From Leptotrichia wadei (GTDB lineage: Bacteria; Fusobacteriota; Fusobacteriia; Fusobacteriales; Leptotrichiaceae): DNA of 64,000 nucleotides. The stretch is taken from contig NZ_AP019841.1 in the NCBI RefSeq assembly GCF_007990445.1, forward strand, positions 1,488,001-1,552,000, in the 5' to 3' direction. This document shows, one piece after another, positions 8,003 through 28,379 of the stretch. The position numbers and the translations under genes were made by a program. Position 1 is the first letter of the stretch. The number at the start of each line of letters is the position of its first letter. The notes under the pieces were generated by a model, which worked only from the letters and a program-made list of their open reading frames with translations, did no database searches and was not told the origin of the DNA.

Positions 8003-8710
8003 ATGAAAAAATATGAAAAAGTTTATCAAGATATAAAAGAAAAAATAAAAAATGGAGAGCTTAAACCTGGTGATTTTTTAAAAAAAGAAGATGATTTGGC
8101 AGAAGAGTATAATTTTTCCAAACTTACTGTGAGAAAAGCTCTTTCAATGTTAGAAACAGAGGGGCGCATTCAAAAAGTAAAAGGAAAAAAGTCAATTATT
8201 TTGGAGAAAAAAAATTTAGAAAATATTTCTTTGACTTCTATTCAAACTACACAAGAACTTAATAAAATTCAAAATATTCATCTTGAAAAAGAATTAATAA
8301 GCCTTTATATTGTACAAGGGGTAAAGGAACTCATGGATAAATTCCAAGTTTCTGAAAACGCTGATTTTTATAAGGTTGTTAGAACTACTTCATTAAATGG
8401 TGAAGTGCTAAATTATTCTACTTCATTTTTTGATAGAAGAATCGTTCCATTTTTAAATGAGAAAATCGCAAAAAATTCTATTTACGAATATTTAGAAAAA
8501 GAGCTAAAATTAAAAATTGCCTACTCTCGTAGAGAAATAAAATTTAGAAAAATTACTTCTGAAGAGCAAAAATATTTTAAATTGAAAGATATAAATATGG
8601 TTGTTGTCATTGAAACACATGCCTATTTATCAAATGGAACACTTTTTCAGTATGAAACAATAATTCATCATCCTGAGAAATTTACTTTCACTGCTATTGC
8701 AAAAAGATAA
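8003..8710 (+). CDS. GntR-family transcriptional regulator with UTRA ligand domain
   Basis: The 235-residue protein has an N-terminal winged helix (KVYQDIKEKIKNGELKPGD, then LTVRKALSMLETEG and KGKKSIIL). A C-terminal UTRA sensor domain covers about residues 80-235. I take ATG 8003 (MKKYEKVYQDI) as the start because family members begin there; an in-frame ATG at 7982 has no ribosome site. HutC-subfamily regulators bind phosphosugars or related ligands. Placed divergently from the GH4 gene and next to the PTS permease, it is the probable regulator of the alpha-glucoside genes, and the shared palindromes support this. Whether it represses or activates cannot be read from sequence. Confidence 0.88.
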   Translation: MKKYEKVYQDIKEKIKNGELKPGDFLKKEDDLAEEYNFSKLTVRKALSMLETEGRIQKVKGKKSIILEKKNLENISLTSIQTTQELNKIQNIHLEKELISLYIVQGVKELMDKFQVSENADFYKVVRTTSLNGEVLNYSTSFFDRRIVPFLNEKIAKNSIYEYLEKELKLKIAYSRREIKFRKITSEEQKYFKLKDINMVVVIETHAYLSNGTLFQYETIIHHPEKFTFTAIAKR

Positions 8711-8720
8711 TTTTTATACA

Positions 8721-8760
8721 AAAAAAGAGATTATATCATTTTTGAAAATAACCTCTTTTT
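8721..8760. terminator. Terminator after the GntR gene
   Basis: AAAAAGAG and CTCTTTTT arms with further pairing (TTAT/ATAA) flank a short AT loop. It starts 10 bp after the regulator stop. A- and T-runs on both sides would let it work in both directions. Confidence 0.7.
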
Positions 8761-8833
8761 CTTTTATTTTGAAATTTTTTCAAATGCTTTAACAAATCCA
8801 ATTGTATAAATATCAAAAAACAAATTTATATAA

Positions 8834-8900
8834 AAGAAAGAACTTTCGCAAGTTTTATAATTTTATACTTAAAATTTTTAACTTTTGAAAATTCTTTCTT
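8834..8900 (-). terminator. Long stem-loop after the PTS gene
   Basis: AAGAAAGAA pairs with TTCTTTCTT at the base, and the stem continues through TTTC/GAAA and AAGTT/AACTT after single mismatches. This gives a 67-nt hairpin that begins 45 bp after the PTS stop. Read on the minus strand it is followed by TTTATATAAATTTG rather than a clean T-run, so it may act as an mRNA 3' stabiliser as well as, or instead of, a terminator. Confidence 0.5.
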
Positions 8901-8945
8901 AATTTTTTATAAAATTTAAATTCAATTATTTATCAAATTTTATTT

Positions 8946-10541
8946 TTACCCTTTTTTCATCATTTCTTCAATTCTTTCTCTTACTTGAGGTACTGACAAT
9001 CCAATGATTACTTGAATAGCTGTTCCTTTTCTAACTACACCATGAGCTCCTGCTGCTTTAAATGCTGCATCTGGTAATAATTTACTTGCATCTTTTACAC
9101 TTACTCTAAGTCTAGTTGCACAGTTATTAAGTTCTTCAATATTTTCTCTTCCACCTAATGCTTCAAGAATGATTGCACCTTTTTGAGCATATTCATCTCC
9201 ACCAGCTACAGCTGCTGCACCTTGTGCTCCACCTTCACCGTGTTTAGCTCTATAATCAGCTTTTGTATAAAGTTTCATTTCTTCATCTTCATCTTCTCTA
9301 CCTGGAGTTTTTAAATCCATTTTTAAAATTAAGAATCTGAATAATACGAAGTAAATACATGTGAAGATTAATCCAATTACAATTTGAGTAATTACTGTTC
9401 CACTGTGGTTTTTAAACATTGGAATCCAGTTTAAGAACATAAAGTCTAAGAATCCTCCACCAAAGTTTCCTACAACTCCGAACATATACATCAATGTTGA
9501 CATTGTTGCAGCTAATACTGCGTGTAATCCAAATAATACTGGTGCTATAAATAAGAATGTAAATTCAAGTGGTTCTGTAATTCCTGAAACTATTGCAGTT
9601 AATAAAACTGGTAATAACAATCCTGCTACTTTTCTCTTGTTTTCAGGTTTAGCTGTTGAATACATTGCAAGTGCGATACCTACTGAACCAAAGATTTTTG
9701 AGTTACCGTGTAATGCAAATCCACCTTGTGGGAACATTTCTTTTAAAGGTCTTGTAGATTGAGCAAATTGACTTATATGTTGAACCCAGTAAGTTTGAAT
9801 TCCACCTGGAACTGCTGCTGGTCCAAATATAAATGGTGTATATACAAAGTGGTGTAATCCTGTTGGAATCAATGCTCTTTCAAGGAACGTATAAATCCAT
9901 ACTCCAATTGGTCCTGAAACTTTTAATAATTGTTGCAAGTTGTTAATTCCAATTTGAACTTTTGGCCAGCAAAGTGCAGTTATGAAAGCACATGGAATCA
10001 TTACTAAGAAACCAATAATATAAACAAATACTGTTCCTTGAAATACTCCTAAAAAGTCTGGTAACTTTTTATCAAAATATTTATTATGTAAATAAACTAC
10101 TATTGCAGAAATTATAATTGCACCAAATAAGTTTGTATCTAGTGTTTTTACTCCAGCAATTACTGCAAGTCCACTTGTTCCTCCAGCTTCTTTACTCATG
10201 TCAACACCAAAGAAACTCCATTGTGCAAGCATTGCAGCTACAAAATAATTATAAGTTGTATATAAAGCAAACGCTTCCAAACATGCTCTTGCATTTGTTT
10301 TATTCGCAAGGCTGATTGGCAATCCGATTGCGAACAATAACGGCATTTGTCTAAATACTGTCCAACCACCTTCACTTATCACAAACCAGAATTTATACCA
10401 GTTTGTCCCTTCATTTGCAATTGAACCCATTACTTGTGGATTCGTAAATAGTGATGCTATTCCTACGACTATCCCTGTGAATGCAAATAATAGAACTGGC
10501 GCCATCATTGCTCCACCAAATCGCTGAATTTTTTTCATCAT
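8946..10541 (-). CDS. PTS EIICB, alpha-glucoside (maltose)-specific
   Basis: The 531-residue membrane permease imports and phosphorylates alpha-glucosides. Residues 1 to about 410 form the EIIC domain with many hydrophobic helices and the glucose-superfamily signature GITEPLEF. A charged linker and an Ala/Gly-rich hinge (about 410-450) lead to EIIB, whose phosphorylated cysteine lies in NNCATRLRV, about residue 478. No EIIA domain is present, so a general glucose-type EIIA must be supplied in trans. An AGGAGG site precedes tandem ATGs at 10541 and 10538. The branch fits GlvC/AglA/MalB-type permeases, and the neighbouring GH4 enzyme agrees. Confidence 0.92.
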   Translation of the reverse strand: MMKKIQRFGGAMMAPVLLFAFTGIVVGIASLFTNPQVMGSIANEGTNWYKFWFVISEGGWTVFRQMPLLFAIGLPISLANKTNARACLEAFALYTTYNYFVAAMLAQWSFFGVDMSKEAGGTSGLAVIAGVKTLDTNLFGAIIISAIVVYLHNKYFDKKLPDFLGVFQGTVFVYIIGFLVMIPCAFITALCWPKVQIGINNLQQLLKVSGPIGVWIYTFLERALIPTGLHHFVYTPFIFGPAAVPGGIQTYWVQHISQFAQSTRPLKEMFPQGGFALHGNSKIFGSVGIALAMYSTAKPENKRKVAGLLLPVLLTAIVSGITEPLEFTFLFIAPVLFGLHAVLAATMSTLMYMFGVVGNFGGGFLDFMFLNWIPMFKNHSGTVITQIVIGLIFTCIYFVLFRFLILKMDLKTPGREDEDEEMKLYTKADYRAKHGEGGAQGAAAVAGGDEYAQKGAIILEALGGRENIEELNNCATRLRVSVKDASKLLPDAAFKAAGAHGVVRKGTAIQVIIGLSVPQVRERIEEMMKKG

Positions 10542-10594
10542 GATTGAGTACCTCCTAAAAATTTATATATTTAATTTATTTTTCCCTTATTTTA

Positions 10595-10638
10595 AATATA
10601 CCACACTTTTTTGATTTGTCAATACATTTACGTATATC
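10595..10638 (-). promoter_or_regulatory. Promoter of the PTS gene with operator-like site
   Basis: On the minus strand there is TTGACA (10622-10617), a 16-base spacer and TATATT (10600-10595). Directly upstream is GATATACGTAAATGTA (10638-10623). Its inverse complement recurs with one change at the malQ promoter, so the two promoters probably share a regulator. Confidence 0.72.
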
Positions 10639-10662
10639 TTTTTTCATTTTTTTTCAAAAAAA

Positions 10663-10693
10663 AATAATCGCTACATAAAAAATAGCGATTATT
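10663..10693 (-). terminator. Terminator of the EEP phosphatase gene
   Basis: AATAATCGCTA and TAGCGATTATT form a perfect 11-bp stem with a 9-base loop. On the minus strand it runs straight into a T-run of nine or more. It separates the EEP gene from the PTS promoter. Confidence 0.85.
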
Positions 10694-10833
10694 ACTGGCT
10701 TTTTGTAAGTTTTTATTTTATTGAATTTTTTTATATTTTTATCAAACTTATTATTATTTCATTTTAAATTTTTATAATAATCTAAATTTTTTGTTCTATT
10801 AGATTTTGAATATGTATATTTTTTACAAATAAA

Positions 10834-11625
10834 TTAAAGTTCTATTTCTACTTCTACTCCAAAATGATCTGAAACAATTTTTTTATTTTCATTATTAAAA
10901 ATAACTTTACTTTCTTTTACTTTTATTTCCTTGTTACTAAATATGTAGTCAATTCTTTTTTGAGATTTATCATTAGCCCATCCATCAATACTCTTATCAA
11001 CTGTTATTCCACTATCTTTTTTCTCAGCTAAAGTATATGTGTCAAACAATCCTTGAGATATGATATTTTTATAATCTTCAGAACTTCCAATGGCATCTGT
11101 ATTAAAGTCACCCATTAATATTTTTAAATTATCATTTTTAGTTCTTGTTAAGATATTTTGAATACTTTTTCCCATATCTTCAGTTTCACAGTTTGGAAGA
11201 TTCATGTGGCAGCTGTAAAATTCAATTTCCTGTCCATTATAGTCAATTGTTATACTTACAATTCTTCTTGAAGAAATTGTTCTTACCGATTGAGCAAAAG
11301 TGCAGTAAAACTCATCTTCTTCTTTTATTTTATGTCTTGTAATTATTGCAACTCCTTCATTGTATTTTCCATATCCAATATGTGAATTACTCCAATGATA
11401 ATAATAATCTGTATCTGTATATTCTTGTAATTTTTCCAGAAGAACCCATCCATAATTTTCCTGTCTTATGTCATCAAAAATTACAGGATTATTCATAAGC
11501 TGATTCACTTCCTGCATTGCTATCACATCATACTGCTTTTCAGCAATAGCCTTTGCTAAAATGTCGATTTTTTCCATTTGGTTTTTTTCTAACCACGCAT
11601 GTACATTTATTGTCAATATTTTCAT
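10834..11625 (-). CDS. EEP-family phosphatase; candidate maltose-6'-phosphate phosphatase
   Basis: This 263-residue cytoplasmic member of the endonuclease/exonuclease/phosphatase superfamily has the key residues Asn7, Glu39 (MQEVN), His140 (CHMN), Asp173/Asn175 (GDFN), Asp226 (RIDYIF) and the terminal SDHFG (Asp253/His254). The family covers nucleases and small-molecule phosphatases. Here it sits between an alpha-glucoside PTS permease and malQ. In Enterococcus faecalis an EEP-type protein, MapP, dephosphorylates maltose-6'-phosphate made by a PTS so that maltose can enter the MalP/MalQ-type route. I infer the same job; sequence alone does not prove it. It has its own promoter region with two tandem palindromes at 11670-11696. 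Confidence 0.72.
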   Translation of the reverse strand: MKILTINVHAWLEKNQMEKIDILAKAIAEKQYDVIAMQEVNQLMNNPVIFDDIRQENYGWVLLEKLQEYTDTDYYYHWSNSHIGYGKYNEGVAIITRHKIKEEDEFYCTFAQSVRTISSRRIVSITIDYNGQEIEFYSCHMNLPNCETEDMGKSIQNILTRTKNDNLKILMGDFNTDAIGSSEDYKNIISQGLFDTYTLAEKKDSGITVDKSIDGWANDKSQKRIDYIFSNKEIKVKESKVIFNNENKKIVSDHFGVEVEIEL

Positions 11626-23917: not shown

Positions 23918-25286
23918 ATATTTTTTATTTTTTACTCTTAATAAATTTTTCCAAAATATACAAACAAAACATATTTACTAAAAATCCTGGTACAATTTCA
24001 TAAATTTTTTTACCAAGTCCGCTTTGATTCCAGAAAATTACTGTAATTGTAGCGACAACCATTGAAATCAAAATATTTTTCCAGTTCATTTCTTTTTTGT
24101 ACAAAATAAATAAAATTACTGGAGAAAATACAGCTCCAAAACCTGCCCATGCGTATGAAACTAATGACAATACTTCTGAATTGGGATTCATTGATAACAA
24201 TGTTGCGATTATAAAAATAATTATAATACAAATTCTCCCAACCCAAATAAGTTCTTTATTCGTTTTTTCTCTTTTAACAATATATTTATAAAAATCTTCA
24301 GTCAAGGTATTCGATGCAACTAACAATTGTGCTGAAATTGTTGACATTATTGCTGATAAAATCGCTGCATATAAAATACCTGCTATCCAAGGATTGAATA
24401 ATTTTCCTATCATGTAAATGAAGATTTTTTCTGGATCTTGAACATTTTTGAAAAGAGCAATTCCTGTAATACCAATTGCAATAGAACAAACCAATGAAAT
24501 TATAACCCATACCATCGCGATTAACCTAGCTTTCCAAAGTTCATTTACACTTTTTATACTCATAAACTTTACAATTATGTGTGGCTGTCCAAAATATCCA
24601 AGTCCCCAACCTAATCCAGAAATAATTACCGGTATGCTAAGTGCTTCTGGATATTTCAACAAGTTAAGTGAAATATGCTTTTGAGTCATTGCAACATCAA
24701 TAGCGCTACTTCCTCCAACTACAAAATATGCTGTAACTGGAACAATTATAATTGCAAAAAACATCAATATTCCTTGAAAGAAATCTGTCCAAACTCCTGC
24801 CAAATATCCACCTAAAAATGTATAAAATATTATGGTTCCTCCACCTACTAATACTCCTAATTTATAATCAATTCCCAATAACGATTCAAATAACTTCCCA
24901 TTTGAAACCAATCCTGATGCCGAGTAAATTGTAAAGAAAAATAAAATTACAATCGCTGAAAAAGTTTTTACGTAACCTTTCGTATCATTTGATTTTTTTG
25001 ATATAAATGTTGGAATTGTCAATGCTTCGTGTTCTTCTGTCTGCATTCTCAATCTTGGTGCTACTATTTTCCAATTTATATAAGTTCCTATTATTAATCC
25101 TATTATAACCCAGACTTGCTTTAATCCTGATAAGTAAACGGCTCCTGGCAATCCTAACAATAACCATCCACTCATGTCACTCGCTTGAGCTGACATTGCT
25201 GTTACCCAGTAACCTACACCTCTTCCACCTAAAATATATTCCTCATGAGTATCCGTTTTTACATAAAAATATACTCCTATCGCCAG

Positions 25287-25399
25287 TGAACTACTCCCAC
25301 TTTTAGAAGCGGGAGCTTCTTGGGAAGTATCTGCTTTTGTTAGCCAAATATATTTACCAAGCTCTTCGGGCAGTCCCTGCCCTGTTTTCTTTTATTTCC
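25287..25399 (-). ncRNA. Predicted omega-RNA (right-end) region, copy A
   Basis: This is the non-coding region between the tnpB stop and the element end. It is strongly conserved with the other two copies, including a GGGCAG/CTGCCC stem and the terminal hairpin. In TnpB systems this region makes the omega-RNA scaffold, and the bases just past the element serve as guide. Here the guide would start CTGGCGATAGGAGTA, which is putP sequence. Function is inferred from the family. Confidence 0.6.
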
Positions 25400-26497
25400 T
25401 TAATATTCCAACATCAATTTTCCAATGTTTTTTATATTCAATGCCGCATTGTAATCTCTATCAATTTCAATTCCACAGCACTCACATTTATAACTTCTTT
25501 CTGATAATTTCAGTTCCTCTTTAATATTTCCACATTTACTGCAAGTTTTCGATGACGGAAACCACTTATCTATCTTCAAAAATTGTTTCCCTAAAAACAT
25601 CAGTTTATACTCAAGCATTCTCAAAAACATTCCCCATCCATTATCTCCTACACTTTTCCCAAAATTTAATGACTGGCTCATCCCCTTCATATTCAAATCC
25701 TCAACAACCACAGCATTGTATTCTTCAGACAATTTTTTCGATAATTTATGTAGAAAATCTCTTCAGCAATTTTTAATATACTCATGCAATTTTGATATTT
25801 TCGCTTTTTGCTTATACCAATTTTTAGAAAATTTCACTTTTCTCGATAATGATTTCTGTAATTTTTTCAATTCTTCTTCCAACATCCTAAAATATTTTGG
25901 ATAATCAGCCCTTTGGTTTTCAGAACTGATAAATAATTCAGACATTGAAAAATCAAGTCCAATTACTTTATCATTACTTGAATTTTTTTGAATTTCTTTT
26001 TCAAATTCTGTCAAAATAGAAACATAGTAATTTCCATTACTGTTTGTCAATGTTACTGACTTTATCTTGTAATCCTTCGGTATTTCTCTATGATATTTTA
26101 ATTTTATTCTTTTCAATTTTGGTAAAATCAAATATTTGTTTTCCTCAATTCGTATCGAATTGTTCACACAATTTGTCGTGTAACTTTTAACATTATTCTT
26201 TTTAGATTTGAACCTCGGAAATTTCGCTCTCTTCTGAAAAAAATTCGTAAACGATCGTTTTACATTCGATTGAGCATTTGAAAGTGCTAGACTGTCCACT
26301 TCTTTTAAAAATTGATTTTCACTCTTCAAACTGGCAGGTGTAATTATTTTATTTTTTCCAGTTTCTTCATAAATTTTATTAGCGATATATAAAATCGTAT
26401 TGTAAACAAAACGAACACATCCAAAAGTCTTATTTATCAATAATTCCTGCTCTTTATTTGGATAAATTCTGTATTTGAATGCTAAATTATATTTCAT
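25400..26497 (-). pseudogene. tnpB: tnpB, copy A, with a premature stop codon
   Basis: The full frame would code for 365 residues from ATG 26497, after an AGGAGG-like site. Codon 245 is TGA where copies B and C have CGA (KNC-R-RDF), so a single C-to-T change truncates the protein after 244 residues. The N-terminal part keeps the RuvC-I Asp (VIGLDFSMSE). The lost part holds the RuvC-II Glu (VVVEDLN), the zinc ribbon (CSKCGN...CECCG) and the RuvC-III Asp (DRDYNAALN). The nuclease from this copy should be dead. Confidence 0.9.
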
Positions 26498-26823
26498 AAA
26501 TTACACCTCCTTTTGATTTTGAATATTATTTCTTTAGAAATTTTATCATTAATGATTTCTCTTCAATATTTTATACAAAAATTTTATCATGGATGTATCC
26601 TTTTTTCAATTTTTTTTACAAAAAAAAAGCAATTCATCTCCCGCTTGTAGAAGCCGGAGACTTCTTGCTATCTTTTTGTTAAAAATAATAAATATATGCC
26701 AAATGTTATAAAAGTTTCTATTCCACCTGTTGCCATTTCTCATCTCCGTTCTTTTTTATTTTATAACTTATTATATCACATTAACTATTTTTTAGCGATA
26801 CTACTTTTTTATTTCTTAATTTT

Positions 26824-27309
26824 TTAAAAAATAATCCTCATATTATACCAAACCGCACCCCCATGAGTTGACTCTGATAACCCTTCATTCACAAACCCAA
26901 TCTTCCCATAAAATGGAACAAGCCTATCTTTACAAGTCAACACAACACCCTTTCTTCCAGCACTTTTCGCATCTTCCACAACTTTTCTCAAAACTTTCTC
27001 AGCATAACCTCTCCGTCTAAATTCTGGAAGCGTGTTCACTCCAAAAATCATCTGCCAATCGCCATTTTCATCATGTAAATTAGGATTTTCAAACATTTCA
27101 TCTGTCAAAATTTCATCATTCGTAGCCATCCCATTTACAAACGAAATAATTTTACCATCCTCATTTTCCAAAATCCAAAAAAAATCTGGATAAATTTCCA
27201 ATCTCCCACGAAAACTCTCTTCCGTTGCCGCCTCCGCAGCAGGAAAACACTCTGCCTCAATTCTTGTCAATTCTTCTAAATCATTAATTGTTGCTTTTCT
27301 AATTTTCAT
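26824..27309 (-). CDS. GNAT-family N-acetyltransferase
   Basis: The 161-residue protein shows the GNAT fold: MKIRKATINDLEELTRIE at the start, acetyl-CoA loop motif FRRRGYAEKVLRKVV (about 105-120), and the C-terminal FYGKIGFVNEGLS strand typical of the family. The acyl acceptor cannot be predicted. It starts at ATG 27309 with an AAGGA site and stands alone upstream of the putP remnant. Confidence 0.88.
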   Translation of the reverse strand: MKIRKATINDLEELTRIEAECFPAAEAATEESFRGRLEIYPDFFWILENEDGKIISFVNGMATNDEILTDEMFENPNLHDENGDWQMIFGVNTLPEFRRRGYAEKVLRKVVEDAKSAGRKGVVLTCKDRLVPFYGKIGFVNEGLSESTHGGAVWYNMRIIF

Positions 27310-27591
27310 TTTTTATTTTTCCTTTTCTAATTTTTTATAAATTTTCAAAATTAAGAGAGTACAAATTTTTGTATAATAAAATAATTAATTAATTTATTTA
27401 GTTTATAGTTTTTAAAAAAATTAAATACTCTCAAAACTAATAAAAATAATCTATCTTTTTACTTTCTAGAACAATTAGAATAAACAATATTCCTGTTTCT
27501 AAAAAATTTCAACTTATGAAATTTCAATTAATTCCTGACATTCTTTACCATGTATTATATTTTGAGTTTACACAAAATTATGGATACTCTC

Positions 27592-28239
27592 TTAATCAAA
27601 AACAACCTTCCATTTATCCCTATTTCTATTCGCCTCAAAGCACATTTTTATTTGCTCAGCTGTGATTTTCTTTGTTTCCAGTTCAGGCAATTCATCAATC
27701 CCAAAATATCTGCTGTCAACCGTTTCAATATTTTTCTCAAATTTTCCACTCACATATTCACACAAAACAAATACTTTCGTTATACCGTATGGTATCTTTT
27801 TACCTTGATTTTTTGTAACATCAAGCAAAGCTATAATCATCTCAGCACTAGTCTCAATCCCAGCTTCTTCCTTAACTTCCTTCAACACATTTTCCTTCAC
27901 AGAAAGATAAACATCCGCCCATCCACCTGGCAATGCCCATTTTCCATTACTTTCCTGAATTAAAAGAACTTTATCATTTTCAAAAATCACACCTCTCACA
28001 TCAATTTTAGGTGTCTGATATCCAACTTCATTACAAAATAAATCCTTTACCTTTTCCACCGAAATCTCAGTTTTGTGTGCCACCATTTCTGCCGAAATCT
28101 CCCTAATTCTCTCAAACCGCTCAATATCGAACTTATCTTTTCCATAAGCAAGTCCTGCTTGTGCTAGACTTTGAAGTTCAATTGCCCAGTCTAGCCATTT
28201 TTGTTCTTCTTCTTTATTTTCTTCTTCATTTTTATTCAC
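27592..28239 (-). CDS. Nudix hydrolase with N-terminal NUDIX_N-type domain
   Basis: The 215-residue protein starts at GTG 28239, decided by an AGGTGAT site 6 bases upstream. The N-terminal helices (KWLDWAIELQSLAQAGLAYG) resemble the NUDIX_N_2 domain found in ADP-ribose pyrophosphatase-like enzymes. The Nudix box is GGWADVYLSVKENVLKEVKE; the catalytic KEVKEEAGI end is intact, but the first Glu of the GX5E part is Leu. The likely substrate is a nucleoside diphosphate linked to another moiety (family knowledge). No operon partner is seen. Confidence 0.85.
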   Translation of the reverse strand: MNKNEEENKEEEQKWLDWAIELQSLAQAGLAYGKDKFDIERFERIREISAEMVAHKTEISVEKVKDLFCNEVGYQTPKIDVRGVIFENDKVLLIQESNGKWALPGGWADVYLSVKENVLKEVKEEAGIETSAEMIIALLDVTKNQGKKIPYGITKVFVLCEYVSGKFEKNIETVDSRYFGIDELPELETKKITAEQIKMCFEANRNRDKWKVVFD

Positions 28240-28379
28240 TGATTATCACCTACTGTTTAAAGTTATTAATTAATTGCTATTCTTCAATATTAGCCTATGT
28301 TATAAAAATTTTATTTAGAAAATCATGATGAAATCATTAATCAGGAATATAAATTAATGAATTTTTTTATTTTTAAAAT

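Follow-up and report, generated by a model that had tools for sequence, protein, structure and literature searches.

A tnpB-only IS200/IS605-type element splits putP 3′ of a TTTAA target in Leptotrichia wadei

Analysis was carried out on a 64,000-nt stretch of Leptotrichia wadei DNA (contig NZ_AP019841.1, positions 1,488,001 to 1,552,000), called the window throughout. The window holds putP, the one gene of proline-transporter type found in the genome, which is split in two by a small jumping element. The features of the locus, and two further copies of the element in the window, are as follows:

23925 to 25285, reverse strand: putP 3′ piece, from the rest of codon 20 to the stop codon; holds a 423-residue open reading frame (ORF) from ATG 25196
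25266 to 25285, reverse strand: putP DNA beside the right end of the element, the would-be guide of this copy's omegaRNA (inferred from Karvelis et al.)
25286 to 26678, reverse strand: IS200/IS605-type tnpB-only element, 1393 bp, C26678 to C25286
25286 to 25384, reverse strand: right end; predicted 99-nt omegaRNA scaffold (RNA fold)
25294 to 25315, reverse strand: right-end hairpin, preceded by AAGAAG and followed by TAGTTCAC (single-strand DNA fold)
25400 to 26497, reverse strand: tnpB, 365 codons, broken; open pieces 25763 to 26497 and 25400 to 25732
26637 to 26660, reverse strand: left-end hairpin, preceded by AAGAAG (single-strand DNA fold)
26679 to 26683, reverse strand: host target TTTAA, 5′ of the element, predicted TAM; also in the uninterrupted gene of genome G022
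26679 to 26736, reverse strand: putP 5′ piece, start codon ATG 26736, codons 1 to 19 and the first base of codon 20; boundary by blastn to locus L082
29414 to 30736: further copy, TnpB of 364 residues, near full-length, behind GTTAA and not TTTAA
39586 to 40992: further copy, TnpB of 366 residues, near full-length

The two putP pieces were joined by a script, giving 1419 bases, or 472 codons and a stop codon, with the point of interruption in codon 20, after its first base. In the joined frame, MATGGIETFITFGIYLLFL continues into PutP sequence with no gap. A first-pass annotation of the window had claimed that removal of the element restores a single ungapped 472-residue frame running from 26736 to 23925, and had proposed alignment with putP of relatives as a check. 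The frame and both its limits were recovered, relatives carry the same frame, and no gap appeared at the junction when the joined flanks were aligned as DNA with 10 of 27 oriented relatives.

The 423 residues of the 3′ piece alone scored 589.5 bits against the PutP equivalog model TIGR02121, above the cut-off of 515.5; a second PutP model, NF011948, gave 411.6, below its cut-off of 955. The 3′ piece also matches the SSF family. A PF00474 search (E 0.001) returned the split putP as the single match in the genome; of the 14 genomes used as controls, 10 contain the family. Since the only SSF-family match is a split gene that scores above the PutP equivalog cut-off, loss of PutP is likely, and we infer that the strain has lost its proline symporter. 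Among 12 genomes of the same genus, eight lack any match to the query protein, and putP is therefore dispensable in the genus; a match is present in only four, which leaves few genomes from which to judge the ancestral state.

The 3′ piece could also encode an N-terminally truncated PutP of 423 residues, translated from ATG 25196, that still works, in which case no function was lost. We regard this as unlikely. An additional N-terminal helix was found in frame upstream of the residue encoded at 25196 in all 27 relatives whose frames were examined (L031–L039 and L042–L059; L040 and L060–L070 were left out). This rules out 25196 as the start of putP, a start in relatives that would have spoken against the rejoined gene of the first-pass annotation. 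We take the helix removed by the element to be the first membrane helix. No Shine-Dalgarno-like purine run was seen by eye immediately 5′ of 25196, and a promoter scan of 25100–26900 yielded 12 candidates against a shuffle mean of 9.7 (sd 2.9), i.e., not above shuffles. In favor of a working product, the retained ORF starts where the conserved SAQASDMSGW helix starts and, when all start codons of the table are allowed, its frame begins within the element, at CTG 25373, and encodes 482 residues. Codon changes in the 3′ piece are also in keeping with use: nine synonymous and one non-synonymous change were assigned to its own branch, eight and two to the G022 branch (where the stop codon of G022 accounts for one non-synonymous change), and four and seven could be placed on neither branch. 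No decay of the 3′ piece was thus seen, and therefore either the insertion is recent or the truncated product is still in use.

The nearest putP relative, in G022, is an uninterrupted gene. In blastn comparison with this locus (L082), window positions 23938–25285 aligned with 8252–9599 and 26679–28317 with 9600–11236. Because host positions 25285 and 26679 abut exactly in G022, we place the element at 25286–26678, with the host target ending in TTTAA; C25286 is the final base of the element and A26679 belongs to the host. This is one base off the first-pass annotation, which had joined 26680 to 25286 (TTTTTA/CTGGCG, with a Leu codon), had considered both ends fixed to the base, and had put the insertion after TTA, without duplication. 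The empty putP site reads TTTTTAA/TGGCG, with a Met codon. The target is kept once, so the absence of duplication holds, while TTA has to be replaced by TTTAA.

The uncorrected placement (element 25287–26679, target TTA, junction codon CTG) is very unlikely to be right. The one-base shift leaves length and frame of the joined putP unaffected, but the uncorrected join has C where G022 has A, whereas the corrected join is the same as G022 at those bases. The G022 sequence across the junction is TTTTTAATGGCG, encoding Met, and the junction codon is ATG in G022, in genome G003 and in the corrected join. In the 27 relatives the corresponding residue is Ile (14), Met (10), Leu (2) or Val (1), both Leu cases coming from distant Oscillospiraceae (L037 and L038). 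In the G003 putP the sequence at the site is TTCTGATGGCG, with no TTTAA.

Other copies of the family point to the same boundary. Each of the 27 two-ended copies in the genome starts with C-AAAA and ends with GTTCAC, so that all begin and end with C at the corrected positions. The pentanucleotide before the element is TTTAA in 26 of them and GTTAA in one (L025). A second empty site, that of copy L009 in G003, has the same boundary and leaves AA on the host side, again in conflict with the uncorrected placement; the two blastn pieces overlap by five bases at this site, and the single mismatch within the overlap settled the boundary. Empty counterparts were also sought for copies L011 and L023, with no usable two-flank alignment. 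The exact 20-base empty-site string of putP was found in one of 14 genomes, G022. Ends common to 27 copies together with this string are more than chance. An assembly error or contamination at the junctions is hardly credible: repeated elements can mislead assemblers, but the family ends and target are exact at both junctions, the contig spans 2.34 Mb, and the order of the putP flanks is kept in G022.

The element has subterminal hairpins at both ends in place of terminal inverted repeats. DNA folding of the left end (26618–26679) gave a z-score of −5.67, with none of 200 shuffles folding as well; for the right end (25286–25345) the values were −3.08 and 2 of 200. Both open pieces of tnpB match NF040570/NF038281; the first contains PF12323 and PF01385, the second PF07282, and the TnpB families of these pieces are present in a full-length copy as well. 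TnpB, the fixed target, the lack of duplication and the subterminal hairpins together make this an IS200/IS605 tnpB-only element; tnpA is absent from the putP copy. An active RNA-guided nuclease needs an intact tnpB frame, and here codon 245 is an in-frame TGA that breaks it. The stop is private to the putP copy, the other 25 of 26 aligned copies having a sense codon. No match for naming the element was found in plasmid or phage collections at megablast sensitivity.

RNA folding of 25286–25425 gave a z-score of −2.75 (0 of 200 shuffles). The presumed scaffold, which makes up the final 99 bases of the element, has a mean column identity of 89% across 32 copies, and 3 of 27 predicted pairs in this alignment show two-sided changes. 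The first 15 bases of the putP guide have an exact match behind TTTAA in G022. The structured right end and the exact target are consistent with a predicted omegaRNA and guided cleavage beside a TAM.

That the element might be an IStron (a group I intron with tnpB) which splices from the mRNA, so that PutP is made anyway, can practically be dismissed: Leptotrichia buccalis is reported to carry such an element, the 1760-bp LbISt1, in the section of PMC4227781 consulted, but an Rfam search at gathering scores matched nothing in the window, one up to E 10 gave four matches in 25200–26760, none of them a group I intron, and the non-tnpB part of the element is just 181 and 114 bases. IStrons as described there resemble the putP element in having IS200/IS605 ORF B (tnpB) in Fusobacteria and in interrupting genes, and differ from it by their group I intron (PMC4227781).

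The family is represented in the genome by fragments and short copies in addition to the 27 two-ended copies, 18 of which keep a TnpB of 363–366 residues. At copies L008, L009, L011 and L023, large open frames extend as far as the junction. Y1 TnpA proteins have an HIH motif and a tyrosine. One match to Y1 TnpA was found in the genome (PF01797, 148 bits, G000:C1:371121-371483). It lies inside copy L024 (locus L086, G000:C1:369000-373000), which has the same ends as the putP copy; judging from these sequences, the remaining copies would depend on the TnpA of L024. Among 13 related genomes, eight gave strong matches to the family and five weak ones (best E 1e-6 or worse).

We conclude with high confidence that a single IS200/IS605 peel-and-paste insertion 3′ of TTTAA, probably moved in trans, broke putP and probably abolished the symporter. 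A Y1 TnpA from elsewhere in the genome would have peeled off the element as a single strand and pasted it 3′ of TTTAA in putP. Mobilization in trans is probable because the element has no tnpA and one Y1 TnpA is still encoded in the genome. The insertion would cut the presumed first membrane helix off PutP and thereby probably abolish the only SSF-type symporter found. A split putP is an ordinary phenomenon for this transposon family: for putP it is one more transposon knock-out, with an empty site that fixes, at single-base precision, the ends and the TTTAA target of a high-copy family.

The interruption may in principle be reversible, since both ends of the element are intact and the genome has one Y1 TnpA gene at another locus. 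Excision by TnpA would restore putP exactly; the 20-base string expected of the excised allele had no match in this genome (G000). The TnpB of another copy, with the omegaRNA of the putP copy, would then cut the restored site, recognized as TTTAA followed by the putP guide, and the cut would favor copying of the element back into putP. The nuclease would have to come from other copies since the tnpB of the putP copy is broken, and this is plausible because the 99-base scaffold is closely conserved among copies. For ISDra2, the authors propose in the part of their report available to us that TnpB with right-end RNA cuts the excision site and that repair restores the element (PMC8612924). Re-installation would be expected from TnpB biology over clean loss of the element.

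A wider reading can be offered tentatively, its probability being rather low. The family would form a tiered population acting in trans, with a single TnpA, some 18 intact TnpBs, and mini-elements consisting of ends, promoter and guide scaffold, the guide being taken from the host flank. The putP copy would be a guide donor; TnpA would free putP and the TnpB of other copies would re-insert the element, so that putP would be guarded in the OFF state with rare ON cells. If action in trans is true, the genome would allow testing whether the TnpB of one copy protects TnpB-deficient insertions, including non-coding mini-elements. Work by Meers in 2023 reportedly dealt with TnpB and the spread of IS605 in Geobacillus.

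The putP element shares several properties with ISDra2 of Deinococcus radiodurans, as given in the excerpts of PMC8612924 used here: no duplication on insertion 3′ of a pentanucleotide, palindromic ends, and TnpB with a right-end guide RNA, which in the putP element is predicted. In ISDra2 the insertion pentanucleotide doubles as the TAM. The target is TTGAT in ISDra2 and TTTAA here, and the putP copy differs in having no tnpA and a stop in tnpB (PMC8612924). In IS608 of Helicobacter pylori, according to the portion of PMC5934647 consulted, the target is likewise kept in the left flank, a guide sequence lies 5′ of each hairpin, and the donor is precisely sealed on excision. Its target is TTAC, unlike TTTAA, and the AAGAAG before both hairpins of the putP element was recognized by eye (PMC5934647). 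The IS605 elements of Halanaerobium hydrogeniformans, in the passages of PMC7290912 that we used, resemble the family in having many tnpB copies and one intact tnpA, with ends presumed movable in trans, and in including an ends-only (PATE-like) copy. There, however, copies keep a degraded tnpA, whereas most copies in our genome have none, and the short copies of our genome differ by their promoter-like sequence and guide-RNA scaffold (PMC7290912). In the literature covered here on TnpB in Leptotrichia and on putP with IS605 the present case was not found; it may still be published.

Around putP, G022, which is labelled as another genus, is 94–98% identical to the window (L082, G022:C1:1206000-1225000), and it is 96% identical at one flank of L023. 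At two other flanks the identity is only 64–68% for G022 and 73–89% for G003. This mosaic of G022 identity suggests exchange between lineages.

Non-coding short copies of about 180–198 bp were found outside the window. They consist of a left-end hairpin, a promoter-like sequence, the 99-nt guide-RNA scaffold and the right end. We examined 29 such loci in six genomes, nine in L. wadei itself (L087–L095, G000) and 20 in relatives (L134–L153; G002, G004, G006, G012 and G022). A left-end start was found by script in 27 of the 29, with lengths of 180–198 bases. These copies resemble transposons stripped down to their ends, a promoter and a guide RNA, and by their sequences may be guide-RNA-only transposons. 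Ends-only elements of the IS605 kind are already known (from the part of PMC7290912 available); in the limited, partly excerpted literature on non-autonomous elements and TnpB guide RNAs that we covered, an arrangement of ends, promoter and guide RNA was not recognized.

A hexamer pair matching at least 10 of 12 promoter positions was detected between left hairpin and scaffold in 23 of the 29 short copies, compared to a mean of 0.7 and a maximum of 4 in 300 mononucleotide shuffles, a comparison that overstates independence because of kinship among the copies. None of 29 longer copies from the same L. wadei genome reached a hexamer score of even 9. The typical pair is TTGAAA-17-TATAAT, ending 8–10 bases before the scaffold. 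Across 12 distinct short-copy alleles, differences affect 16.5% of hexamer positions and 51.5% of spacer positions; the alleles fall into two main groups, and for one of them (L093) the match may lie at a different place.
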